The notes under the pieces are model-generated. The model worked only from the letters and a program-made list of their open reading frames with translations. It did not search any database and had not been told where the DNA came from. 64,000 nucleotides of DNA from the NCBI RefSeq assembly GCF_020966775.1, contig NZ_JAJKFV010000011.1, positions 361,023-425,022 of the forward strand, read 5' to 3'. Positions within the stretch are counted from its first letter, which is position 1, and each line of letters opens with the position of its first letter. The position numbers were made by a program, and so were the translations under genes. This document shows, one piece after another, positions 17,811 to 21,739 of this stretch. The DNA comes from Rhodopirellula halodulae. GTDB lineage: Bacteria > Planctomycetota > Planctomycetia > Pirellulales > Pirellulaceae.

Positions 17811-18290
17811 TCAAGGGTAGTAATAGGGCCGACCAACGCCGTAATAACCAGGCGCGACATAGTAGGTCCCGGTCCCGAATCCGATCGTGCCTCCGGGCCC
17901 CACACGGAATCCAGTCCCACTGACCGATCCAGGTACGTATCCGTATCCATAGCTGCGATACCCGTATCCGCTGTAACCACCGTATCCGTAGGTCGGAATT
18001 CGATTCAAAACCCGGCGGGGAATCCGGTTGGTATAGGTGTATCCGCTGCCGGTGGAACGAGGCGTGACCGCGGGACGCTGCACCGTGTAGTTATTCTGCG
18101 GCAGCCCTCCTCGCTGAGAAATGATGCTGCTACCGCCACGATCAAATCCGTTGCTCTGAATTCCATATCGATAGCCCTGTGCCGAAGCATCCTGCGACAG
18201 AACCACGCTGGCAACGACTGCCACCGCGAGCCCGCCCACCCACGTGAATTTCGAGCTGAAACGCGGCCGCGTTTGTAGAAAAGTGTTCAT
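17811..18290 (-). CDS. Secreted Gly/Tyr-rich protein of unknown function
   Basis: 159 residues. A signal peptide (hydrophobic stretch GGLAVAVVASVVLS, probable cleavage after ASA at about residue 38) is followed by a mature domain very rich in Gly, Tyr, Arg and Ser, with many GYG, YGYG and YYP motifs and no cysteine. The ATG at 18290 places the signal peptide at the N-terminus. No enzyme motif is visible. Low-complexity secreted proteins of this kind are common in Pirellulaceae and may be structural envelope or matrix proteins; that is inference. Confidence 0.72.
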   Translation of the reverse strand: MNTFLQTRPRFSSKFTWVGGLAVAVVASVVLSQDASAQGYRYGIQSNGFDRGGSSIISQRGGLPQNNYTVQRPAVTPRSTGSGYTYTNRIPRRVLNRIPTYGYGGYSGYGYRSYGYGYVPGSVSGTGFRVGPGGTIGFGTGTYYVAPGYYGVGRPYYYP

Positions 18291-18640
18291 TGCAAACCTC
18301 GACAAAAAGAGAAGAAACAGCAGACATGCCCGTCGCCGTACCGTTCGCCATTTTAGGCGTGACGACCACGACGGTCCTCTTAAGAAATGACCGCAACAAC
18401 GCATTTCCCCGCCAATTGATACCGAACTCTCGCCTGAAAACCTGAAATCCAGACAGCCAATTTCCACGAAACGGCCGCTTCAACTGCAAGCAATCTCGAT
18501 CGAGCGACTCTGCTAAACTGAGCGTTTCTCACGATCCATCGGATGAGCATCACCTGAGTCGACCGGGACACGGGCAGTGCGGAATCCCAAAATCGTGGCC
18601 AAGCGTTTAACAGACTTTTCCTCTTTTTCGATTGATCGGC
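18291..18640. other. Divergent intergenic region, no gene seen
   Basis: 350 bases between the divergent starts of the Gly/Tyr-rich protein and the permuted binding protein. The short frames that cross it lack coding character. It should contain two promoters; no clear inverted repeat or riboswitch was recognised. Confidence 0.45.
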
Positions 18641-19732
18641 ATGGTTCGAATTTGGTTGGGATGCGTTGGTTTGATCTTGCTCGTTGGATGCAGCAAATCA
18701 AATTCCACTTCGGTGAGCACGGCTGAAGGTGGCGGCGATACCGCGGCGGAAGTGGTGGATGCCGACGGTTTCCCCAAACAATGCGGCAACTACACCGTGC
18801 TGGGAATCCTGACGGACAACCAAGACAATTCGAAAGCCAAAGAGAACGCCGAAACCACCTTGCTTCGACATCCCGACGTCGCGTGCATGGTCGGACTCTG
18901 GAGCCAGAACACGCCGATGATTTTGGCCGCTTTGCGAAGCAGCGACGCTCTGGGCAAGGTTCAGGTTGTTGGATTTGACGAACACCCCGACACTTTGGCG
19001 GGCATTCGAGAACAATCCGTTTATGGAACGGTGGTCCAACAACCTTACGCGTTTGGTTTCCGAAGTGTGCAATGGCTGACGACGCTCGCCACCGGAGGCC
19101 AGGTCGAAGTTCCCGACAGCGGAATGATCATCATCCCTCACCGATCCATCACCGCCGACAACGTCAGTGAATTCGCGGCCGACGTCGAGAAGATGAAATC
19201 GGGCGAAGGTCCGATCTTGTCGGGTGACGAAACGATCGACGGCAAAGGCATTCGCGTTGCTTACATCACGAACTCACTCGATCCGTTTTGGACTCTCGCC
19301 GATGCGGGCTGCAAACGAGCCGCCGAAACCTTTGGCTGCGAGGTCGACGTGCAAATGCCGTCCACTGGGACCATCGAAGAACAAAAACGATTCCTGGAAT
19401 CCAACGTGGCCGCCAAAGTTGATGGAATTGCAATCAGCCCGATCGACCCCGAAAACCAAGTCGCCATGATCAACGAAGCTTGCCAGGCCACCACGGTGAT
19501 CTGCCAAGACAGCGACGCCCCAGCATCCCGACGGGAATTTTATTTGGGCACCAGCAATTACCTCGCCGGACGCGCCGCGGGGAAACTGATCCAAGAAGCA
19601 ATTCCCGAGGGAGGCGAGGTGATGTTGTTCGTTGGAAAAATGGAAGTGCTCAACGCCCAAGAGCGAAGCCAAGGGATCATGGACGAACTGGCGGGCAAAC
19701 CCATTCCAGCCATTCTTCAAAACGCGAATTGA
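18641..19732 (+). CDS. Circularly permuted LacI/RbsB-type sugar-binding lipoprotein
   Basis: 363 residues. A lipoprotein signal with lipobox LLVGC (C17) is followed by a type I periplasmic-binding domain in reversed order. Residues about 39-195 match the normal C-terminal part: YTVLGILTDNQDN, HPDVACMVGLW, VVGFDEHPDTL, VVQQPYAFG, then the usual chain end ITADNVSEF. Residues about 203-357 match the normal N-terminal part: IRVAYITNSLDPFW, DGIAISPIDPENQ, VICQDSDAP, FVGKMEVLNAQERSQGI. The new termini fall in what is normally a loop between a helix and a strand of lobe 2. The chain stops soon after that point. No ABC permease or ATPase gene is adjacent. Likely binds a sugar or related ligand if folded. 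An upstream TTG (18632) is a weaker start. Confidence 0.85.
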   Translation: MVRIWLGCVGLILLVGCSKSNSTSVSTAEGGGDTAAEVVDADGFPKQCGNYTVLGILTDNQDNSKAKENAETTLLRHPDVACMVGLWSQNTPMILAALRSSDALGKVQVVGFDEHPDTLAGIREQSVYGTVVQQPYAFGFRSVQWLTTLATGGQVEVPDSGMIIIPHRSITADNVSEFAADVEKMKSGEGPILSGDETIDGKGIRVAYITNSLDPFWTLADAGCKRAAETFGCEVDVQMPSTGTIEEQKRFLESNVAAKVDGIAISPIDPENQVAMINEACQATTVICQDSDAPASRREFYLGTSNYLAGRAAGKLIQEAIPEGGEVMLFVGKMEVLNAQERSQGIMDELAGKPIPAILQNAN

Positions 19733-20217: not shown

Positions 20218-20976
20218 TCAGCGGCCTTCGCGAAGGCGATAGCCCAGGAAGTTATCGAGTTCCGCTTCTGCTTCGATCGCCTGAACCGTTCGCTCGATGT
20301 CATATTCGACTCGGCGGAACATCACTACATCCGGTTCAACAACGACGTAGCAACTTCGTGGATCACCGTCGCGCGGCTGCCCGACGCTGCCGACATTGAT
20401 CATCAACTTCGCATTGGGGTCCGCCAACGAATAACCCGTTCCGGTATCGGCGGGCCGCACAAATCGCTGCTCCATCGTGAACACTCCCGGCACGTGCGTG
20501 TGCCCTTGGAAGCAAACTCGCGGCACGAGCGAAAACAGCTTCTCCATCTTCTTTGAGTTCTGGGCGTCTTCCGGAAAGACATATTCGTTCGTGGGCCCAC
20601 GAGGTGAACCGTGCACGAACAACCAGTGATCCTCACGAACCGTTCGCGGCAACCCACACAGATACTCAACGCGTCGGCGACTGGCACCGGGGTCGTCACC
20701 GGGCTCTTCCAATTTGCTGCGGGTCCAAAAAATGGCCTGCTCGGCGGCCACATTGAATCCTTCCGGGTCAAATAGCGAACTGCTGTCGTGGTTGCCCAGC
20801 ACGCAAAAATCAAACCCCATGACCGTGTCGAGACAAGCACATGGTTCCGGGCCGTAACCCACCACATCGCCCAAACACACGATGCGGTCAACTTTTTGCG
20901 TTTCGATATCGGCGAGGACGGCTTCCAGTGCGGACAGGTTGCCGTGAATGTCACTCAGAATGGCGGTACGTGTCAC
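20218..20976 (-). CDS. Calcineurin-like metallophosphoesterase (copy 2 of tandem pair)
   Basis: 252 residues with the complete metallophosphoesterase motif set: SDIHGN, GDVVGYGP, GNHD, a VHGSP segment and GHTHVPG. It is a soluble YfcE/MJ0936-like enzyme and would bind two divalent metals; the substrate is unknown. The start is GTG. It begins 4 bases after the stop of a paralogue of identical length on the same strand, with a GAGGG ribosome-binding site inside the end of that gene. The two are a tandem duplication and probably co-translated. Confidence 0.9.
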   Translation of the reverse strand: MTRTAILSDIHGNLSALEAVLADIETQKVDRIVCLGDVVGYGPEPCACLDTVMGFDFCVLGNHDSSSLFDPEGFNVAAEQAIFWTRSKLEEPGDDPGASRRRVEYLCGLPRTVREDHWLFVHGSPRGPTNEYVFPEDAQNSKKMEKLFSLVPRVCFQGHTHVPGVFTMEQRFVRPADTGTGYSLADPNAKLMINVGSVGQPRDGDPRSCYVVVEPDVVMFRRVEYDIERTVQAIEAEAELDNFLGYRLREGR

Positions 20977-20980
20977 CCGA

Positions 20981-21739
20981 TCAATGCCCTCGTTTCAAAC
21001 GATCGCCCAAGGCATCGTCCAGATCGGGTTGTGCGTAGATTTTCTTGGCCGTTTGCTCGATGTCGTATTCCACTCGGCGATAGGTGACCGTCTTCTCGTC
21101 GGTATCGAGCACCACGTAGCATGAACGATTGTTTTCGTCGCGAGGCTGACCAACACTGCCGACGTTGAACATCAACTTCTGGTTGCCCAACCGAAAGACA
21201 TGGTCACTCTCATCCGGCGTGATGAATTCACATTCGGTCGTGAACACGCCGGGAAGGTGAGTGTGCCCCATGAAGCAATACTGTTCGACTTTGCCGAACA
21301 GAATCTCCATTTTGCGGGCATCATAGACGTATTCCGGGAACACGTATTCGTTGGTTGGATCCCGGGGGGAACCGTGTACAAACTTGTAGTCGCCGTCGTT
21401 GAAGTAGCGTGGCAACTCGCCCAAGAAATCCCAACGAGCGTTCATCTGAGCCGGGCCACCTTTGCCGCTATCCAGCTCATCGCGAGTCCAATAAATCGCT
21501 CGCAACGCCATCGGATTGAACCCGTCAGGATCAAACAAGGCGGCTTGATCGTGGTTGCCAAGGATGGTGTGCTTGCAGCGACGCATCACCAGATCCAAGC
21601 ACTCGCACGGGTTGGGGCCGTAGCCGATGATATCGCCCAGGCACACAACTTCCTGAACACCGACCGTGTCGATGTCTTCCAGAACCGCCTGCAGAGCTTC
21701 CAGGTTCCCGTGGATGTCGCTGATCAACGCTCGCTTCAC
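20981..21739 (-). CDS. Calcineurin-like metallophosphoesterase (copy 1 of tandem pair)
   Basis: 252 residues, same motif set as its downstream paralogue: SDIHGN, GDIIGYGPNPCECLD, GNHD, VHGSPRDPTNEYVFPE and GHTHLPG. GTG start with a good GAGG ribosome-binding site about 6 bases upstream. The two copies share the unusual PTNEYVFPE and NVGSVGQPRD segments but differ throughout, so the duplication is old. The substrate is unknown; protein phosphoserine/threonine or a cyclic nucleotide are both possible for this fold. Confidence 0.9.
   Translation of the reverse strand: MKRALISDIHGNLEALQAVLEDIDTVGVQEVVCLGDIIGYGPNPCECLDLVMRRCKHTILGNHDQAALFDPDGFNPMALRAIYWTRDELDSGKGGPAQMNARWDFLGELPRYFNDGDYKFVHGSPRDPTNEYVFPEYVYDARKMEILFGKVEQYCFMGHTHLPGVFTTECEFITPDESDHVFRLGNQKLMFNVGSVGQPRDENNRSCYVVLDTDEKTVTYRRVEYDIEQTAKKIYAQPDLDDALGDRLKRGH

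Follow-up and report, generated by a model that had tools for sequence, protein, structure and literature searches.

Does the gene at positions 18641 to 19732 of the window, the stretch of 64,000 nucleotides from Rhodopirellula halodulae analyzed here, encode a genuine circularly permuted sugar-binding protein, and if so, how often has such a permutation arisen, and with which partners does the protein work? An earlier note, made from the letters alone, had read the gene as an RbsB-type lipoprotein in which the C-terminal part of the domain precedes the N-terminal part. The ORF is intact and runs on the + strand from an ATG at 18641 to a stop at 19732 (363 aa). Its features are listed below.

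18641..19732, + strand: sugar-binding lipoprotein gene of order CP-A (C1-C2-N1-N2), 363 aa; from the ORF, Pfam and segment probes
18641..18691, + strand: signal peptide with lipobox LLVGC, Cys17; from the motif
18776..19210, + strand: C-terminal half of Peripla_BP_4, placed first; ~aa 46-190, Pfam profile ~150-257
19211..19249, + strand: linker between the former C- and N-termini; ~aa 191-203, boundaries placed by eye
19250..19711, + strand: N-terminal half of Peripla_BP_4, placed last; ~aa 204-357, profile ~10-151
19712..19732, + strand: short tail and stop; new C-terminus at cut site A

The Pfam family Peripla_BP_4 (PF13407) matched the whole window protein with 170.9 bits (gathering threshold, 35.1) in two stretches that cover most of the domain, which places the protein among the type I (cluster B) binding proteins (SBPs). 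The first half alone (window 18641-19225) aligned with profile positions 150-257 and the second half alone (window 19226-19732) with positions 10-151, that is, in swapped order and with almost no overlap or loss. The NCBIfam models showed a similar exchange, every score being below cut-off: positions 155-283 of the RbsB model matched aa 29-156, and positions 2-152 of the rhizopine SBP model matched aa 205-350. None of the equivalogs for RbsB, allose, RhaS, rhizopine, or LsrB scored above its cut-off (best, 82.6 bits versus a cut-off of 420), and thus the substrate of the window protein cannot be named. The protein begins with MVRIWLGCVGLILLVGC, a short signal with a lipobox ahead of the C-part, and we take Cys17 to be the lipidated residue from the lipobox motif. 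No second copy of either SBP half was matched in the window. Together, these results confirm that the window gene is a natural circular permutation of an RbsB-type lipoprotein: each half, aligned separately, matches the family in exchanged order, and the lipoprotein signal has been kept in front, both as the earlier note had read them.

As the window stems from a draft assembly of 33 contigs, we considered whether the order could be a mis-assembly or a sequencing artefact. In a search of 60 genomes, made up of the window's own and those of 59 relatives, 57 had some match (E <= 1e-3, remote paralogues included), and the window order appeared as one unbroken match in the window's own genome and in G002, G004, G005, G007, G010, G011, G023, G025, G030, G032, G035, and G044. 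Across the window's taxonomic family, 145 of 241 genomes had a match at E <= 1e-25; the match was of the window type (query ~45-357) in 39 of these 145 and spanned query ~100-357 in 7, and the remaining 99 matched one half at a time, among the matches listed. Within the window's genus, the gene was present in 7 of 13 genomes at the same threshold. The order was further found on contigs of Neorhodopirellula pilleata and Rhodopirellula europaea 6C, on six MAG contigs (L037-L042), and in nine single-contig genomes (G002, G004, G023, G086, G092, G094, G095, G192, and G195). Its occurrence in related genomes, which the earlier note had left to be looked for, thus extends over many genera, as one unbroken ORF and in independent assemblies. 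Moreover, PDB chain 5er3 aligned with query residues 24-361 in the permuted order (659.7 bits), over chain residues 3-340 of 341. The four printed stretches of 5er3, 89% identical to the window protein (283/318 aligned columns), recur letter for letter in L010, the permuted gene of genome G004; we take the organism of 5er3 to be Rhodopirellula baltica. The solved chain shows that the permuted order folds, which had previously been called plausible. The nine single-contig genomes, the MAGs, and 5er3 rule out mis-assembly, and we consider the chance of an artefact to be negligible. An in-frame TAG in the match from genome G114 proved to be the gene's own stop (the ORF of L057 ends at 2448, the match at 2451).

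We then called the order of the domain segments at 153 loci, using the N1, N2, C1, and C2 segments of the window protein as four probes; ORFs were kept at >= 110 summed bits, and lower ones, which are remote paralogues, were dropped. All 148 family-1 ORFs (148/148) fell into three orders. The window order, C1-C2-N1-N2 (CP-A), was carried by 67 of the 148 ORFs (41 distinct proteins) and a second permuted order, C2-N1-N2-C1 (CP-B), by 19 of 148 (14 distinct proteins). Normal-order relatives (N1-N2-C1-C2) were sought and found, 62 of the 148 ORFs being of this kind (51 distinct proteins). CP-B occurs beyond the window's taxonomic family, namely in family f8, where five genomes of genus g92 carry it, and also in G882 and G719, and CP-A was also detected in G044, G652, and G580.

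Site A, where the CP-A proteins are cut, corresponds to a loop of 17-18 residues in the normal-order proteins L033 and L087, between ..IDELLDR and KYTILDTRTD, so the earlier placement of the cut in a loop holds. Comparison of the CP-A protein L076 with L033 showed residues kept on both sides of site A (tail, ..DRSFDATRYDAP; start, ..GNTLKNDKYEFLD), indicating that almost nothing was lost there. Site B lies between ..EAIRGADKVGQ and IKVVAFDE (L086 numbering). From knowledge of the RbsB fold, both sites would be helix-to-strand loops of the C-lobe. No duplicated or fused intermediate was seen, since none of the 148 loci had more than one family ORF (0/148); the route through tandem duplication followed by loss, which the earlier note had favored, is thus unproven.

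To evaluate the binding cleft, we compared 25 positions, hand-chosen in and near the cleft motifs, across 106 distinct family-1 proteins of all orders. The cleft role of the conserved positions is one that we presume from RbsB and MglB. Ten of the 25 chosen positions (F216, W217, Q248, D290, D292, N338, R342, F112, D113, and Q133) were identical in 106/106 proteins, a degree of conservation consistent with a type I (cluster B) SBP, and N90 was identical in 104/106. These ten invariant positions suggest that the core of the predicted binding site was kept through permutation. At position 214, 38 of 41 CP-A proteins have D and 36 of 51 normal-order proteins have A, and positions 63, 87, and 134, near the cleft, varied too. 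Because residues around the cleft are not all shared, and in part track the order, specificity may differ as well.

The number of origins was addressed with a maximum-likelihood tree of the proteins rearranged to normal order (108 rows, including two copies of one outgroup protein). Most CP-A proteins formed one clade (support, 100/100). Outside it, L076 sat beside normal-order L033 (96/97), L018 sat beside normal-order L022 (91/55), and L113 was placed, with low support (65/71), within a set of normal-order rows. CP-B proteins formed two clades, each with 100/100 support, and the fewest changes of order on the family-1 tree numbered 6. The best CP-A match of L076 was L018 (68% identity), whereas two normal-order proteins, L132 and L033, reached 71%. 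Approximately unbiased (AU) tests, in which "all CP-A" and "all CP-B" were groups defined by order and the other groups were picked after seeing the tree, rejected a single clade of all 41 CP-A proteins (p 5.4e-7), a single clade of all 14 CP-B proteins (p 2.0e-4), and the main CP-A clade joined with L018 and L076 (p 2.6e-5). Two mergers, each tested singly, were not rejected: L018 with L076 (p 0.19), which may represent one event, and the main CP-A clade with L113 (p 0.273), to which L113 may belong. From the rejections and the mergers still allowed, we infer that permutation took place four or more times in family 1, at two sites, with six changes by parsimony.

Quick trees of the N-half alone and the C-half alone, which are short and have weak support in places, gave 6 changes each. 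In these trees, the nearest normal-order row differed by half for L076, L018, L113, and the second CP-B clade: L132 (78%) for the N-half and L033 (70%) for the C-half of L076, L133 and L022 for L018, and L025 and L115 for L113. These differences could be taken to mean that a C-half and an N-half were fused from two different genes, an origin that was considered for Tp0684 in PMC4990184; exchange between close relatives is another possible source of them. However, neither half joined a far-off normal-order family in the case of L076, L018, the main CP-A clade, or either of the CP-B clades, and both halves align over normal-order relatives. The half-trees thus disfavor a fusion of halves from unrelated genes, and we judge a fusion of two different genes to be very improbable.

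A second, distant SBP family was found via weak single-stretch matches. The proteins of loci L189-L194, 22-27% identical to the window protein, start at the first C-lobe segment and end after the N-lobe, which defines a third site, C (order CP-C). The exchange of Pfam halves was seen in all three of these proteins that were scanned (3/3), an ABC ATPase gene adjoins the CP-C gene in 6/6 loci, and a permease was matched in 5/6. One further member, L195 / L225 of genome G890, is the only one seen with the site-B order; genes for an ATPase and a permease lie downstream of it. In total, the second family comprised 45 distinct rows, of which 32 were normal, 12 CP-C, and 1 site-B, and a normal-order member is present in the window's own genome (L002/L202). 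The CP-C type was detected in 11 of 241 genomes at E <= 1e-55; further loci of the CP-C family are L226-L236. The tree of this family is weak and gave 5 changes by parsimony, but AU tests did not reject all 12 CP-C rows as one clade (p 0.453) and were marginal for CP-C together with L195 (p 0.056). We claim no more than two changes of order for the second family.

A single CP-C clade, which the tests allow, would also suit a single ancient permutation followed by later returns to normal order, and change counts cannot separate gain from loss. Yet in family 1, the AU tests reject one permutation for everything at sites A and B (all CP-A, all CP-B, and main CP-A with L018 and L076), the N-half and C-half trees likewise give 6 changes, and a return to normal order is itself a permutation. 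We therefore hold a single origin with later returns to be improbable.

A lipobox, searched for with one regular expression at <= 100 residues ahead of the first domain segment, was detected in 40 of 41 CP-A, 13 of 14 CP-B, and 42 of 51 normal-order distinct proteins. The permuted proteins missed by the pattern, L051 and L078, have a plausible Cys by eye, as do most of the nine normal-order misses, L021 and L152 being without one. Since the lipobox is found in normal-order relatives too, tethering is not new with the permutation. This distribution across all orders bears on a suggestion made in PMC4990184 that permutation is possibly an adaptation to tethering. With the new ends in a C-lobe loop, the anchor of the permuted proteins would now be on the C-lobe instead of the N-lobe; what should change on permutation is which lobe is tethered.

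The earlier note had also stated that no ABC genes are adjacent. This is correct for the window, where tblastn with one ATPase and one permease (E <= 1e-10 and 1e-4) gave no match for a CUT2 ATPase or permease, so that the CUT2 importer arrangement of an SBP gene beside ATPase and permease genes was not found there, but it is untrue for 22 of 35 permuted family-1 genes with wide flanks. We counted neighbors with one record per distinct protein and >7 kb of sequence, excluding the window itself, and required an ATPase of >= 40% identity within 1 kb downstream. An ATPase gene was present downstream of 28/28 normal-order, 12/12 CP-B, and 10/23 CP-A genes, and by the same rule both ATPase and permease genes accompanied 27/28, 11/12, and 7/23, respectively. 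Permuted proteins thus stand in transport operons as normal ones do. The window's nearer relatives and L141 make up the 13 CP-A genes that lack an ATPase; in L040 and L066, the sole ATPase match was of 26-29%, 1.7 and 6.5 kb away.

The lack of matched ABC genes in the window raises the possibility that the orphan permuted protein is no longer part of an importer and instead senses or scavenges sugar, for instance by handing it to a chemoreceptor or signaling protein. Binding proteins can sense, as MglB does in chemotaxis, which is discussed for Tp0684 in PMC4990184. We fetched the best ATPase loci from nine genomes with an orphan SBP gene. An ATPase and a permease without an SBP-probe match were present in 8/9 of them (G000, G192, G025, G023, G195, G652, G004, and G002), which argues against such a sensor; in the ninth, G011, an ATPase was matched and no permease. 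The ATPase and the permease of G023 are 1.5 kb apart, and in G023, G025, and G192 the pair lies ~18-30 kb from the SBP gene. In addition, the neighbors in the window, L043, and L063 encode a carbamoyltransferase, a PLP enzyme, phosphoesterases, and a TsaD-family protein, none of which is a signaling protein; these neighbors were not found in seven other orphan or related loci compared. Altogether, we regard a role outside import as rather unlikely, although more probable than the other alternatives considered above.

In the window's own genome (G000), a CUT2 ATPase-permease pair is located on contig C29 at 93.3-96.1 kb (L179, 7299-10126), directly after a thioredoxin-like gene and with a trypsin/PDZ protease gene on the other flank. 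No SBP gene was found beside this pair among the flanking genes read. Its ATPase is 53% identical to the CP-A-linked query ATPase, and three other such ATPases above the cut-off are present in G000. We infer that the window protein works in trans with the C29 pair, the alternatives being another transporter or sensing.

Two other features of the neighborhood were recorded. Two adjacent calcineurin-like phosphoesterase genes, of 252 aa each and likely a tandem duplication, occupy window positions 20218-21739; such a pair is also near the SBP gene in L043 and L063 and not in the seven other loci compared. Window positions 17811-18467 encode a secreted-looking Tyr/Gly-rich protein without a Pfam match; among nine loci compared, it is found at the corresponding place in just L043 and L063.

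We consider it probable that the product of the window gene is a functional sugar-binding protein, tethered to the membrane and of the CUT2 (RbsB/MglB-like) importer type, that was circularly permuted by evolution. The swapped order and its conservation, the solved chain in the same order, the conserved residues, the operon context of relatives, and the scattered placement in the tree are observed; sugar binding, the partner in trans, the anchor geometry, and the mutational route of the window protein are predictions. The old ends would have been joined by a linker and new ends opened in a C-lobe loop, so that the lipid anchor would sit on the C-lobe in place of the N-lobe, with the cleft kept. 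The permutation would have occurred when the gene was still part of an SBP-ATPase-permease operon; in the window lineage, the gene now lies apart from transporter genes, and its protein probably works in trans for an ATPase-permease pair that has no binding protein of its own. Among planctomycete sugar-binding proteins, such permutation appears to have arisen repeatedly, with the same few loops used again.

The broader proposal is that permutation recurred in planctomycete SBPs, with at least four events in family 1 and at least two order changes in family 2, at three C-lobe sites (A, B, and C), each moving the anchor from the N-lobe to the C-lobe and mostly still beside the same kind of transporter; we see about equal chances of its being right or wrong. 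If it is true, a preference for the C-lobe that shows up again and again would imply that the position of the anchor on the binding protein is under selection. To our knowledge, most natural circular permutations on record are isolated ancient events. In the present case, permuted proteins coexist with normal-order relatives that are ~70% identical, in one phylum and in the same operon setting, with several apparent origins and cut sites used more than once, which makes possible a before/after comparison of how a permutation arises and which loops tolerate new ends. The same comparison could show whether tethering by the other lobe alters transport. For annotation, exchanged half-domain matches can mean a permuted whole protein.

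Among solved structures, 5er3 (sugar ABC transporter, periplasmic sugar-binding protein) belongs to the same family and has the same permuted order as the window protein, and is available as a solved chain only. In the literature searched, no account of this protein was found, and mentions of "5er3" concern other subjects, as judged by title or abstract. The nearest solved normal-order RbsB-type SBPs, 2qvc, 2h3h, and 3c6q, which we take to be of Thermotoga origin, are of the same fold family, and both halves match. In 2qvc and 2h3h, which have the normal N-to-C order, the window protein is matched as two stretches in exchanged order.

Tp0684 (TpMglB-2) of Treponema pallidum, for which the class "Type Ic" or "Cluster Bc" was proposed in 2016, is a sugar-binding lipoprotein that binds D-glucose and is a natural circular permutation by crystal structure, with relatives reported in spirochaetes and mostly in Gram-positives (PMC4990184). 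Like Tp0684, the window protein is a circularly permuted cluster B SBP. In Tp0684, the first three N-lobe strands have moved to the C-terminus and the strand order of the C-lobe is unchanged. Unlike it, the window protein is cut in the C-lobe, at profile position ~150 of 258, a comparison that follows the description in PMC4990184; it thus lacks the Type Ic cut, which falls after the third N-lobe strand and leaves the C-lobe order unchanged. No word beginning "planctomyc" or "Rhodopirellula" occurs in the main text of PMC4990184. Engineered halves of the Thermotoga maritima ribose-binding protein (PMC9815098) likewise have permuted lobes of the type I SBP fold, but those constructs are designed single lobes and the window protein is a natural full protein. 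Beyond PMC4990184, no other natural permutation of this fold was found in a limited literature that included PMC9815098, PMC10601554, and PMC7701253, the only permuted protein mentioned in PMC7701253 being an ATP-grasp protein. Nor was a description of permuted planctomycete SBPs found in the limited set searched, mostly titles and abstracts. Altogether, the permutation of the window protein has a precedent; the unusual aspects are how many times it seems to have originated and that sites were reused.
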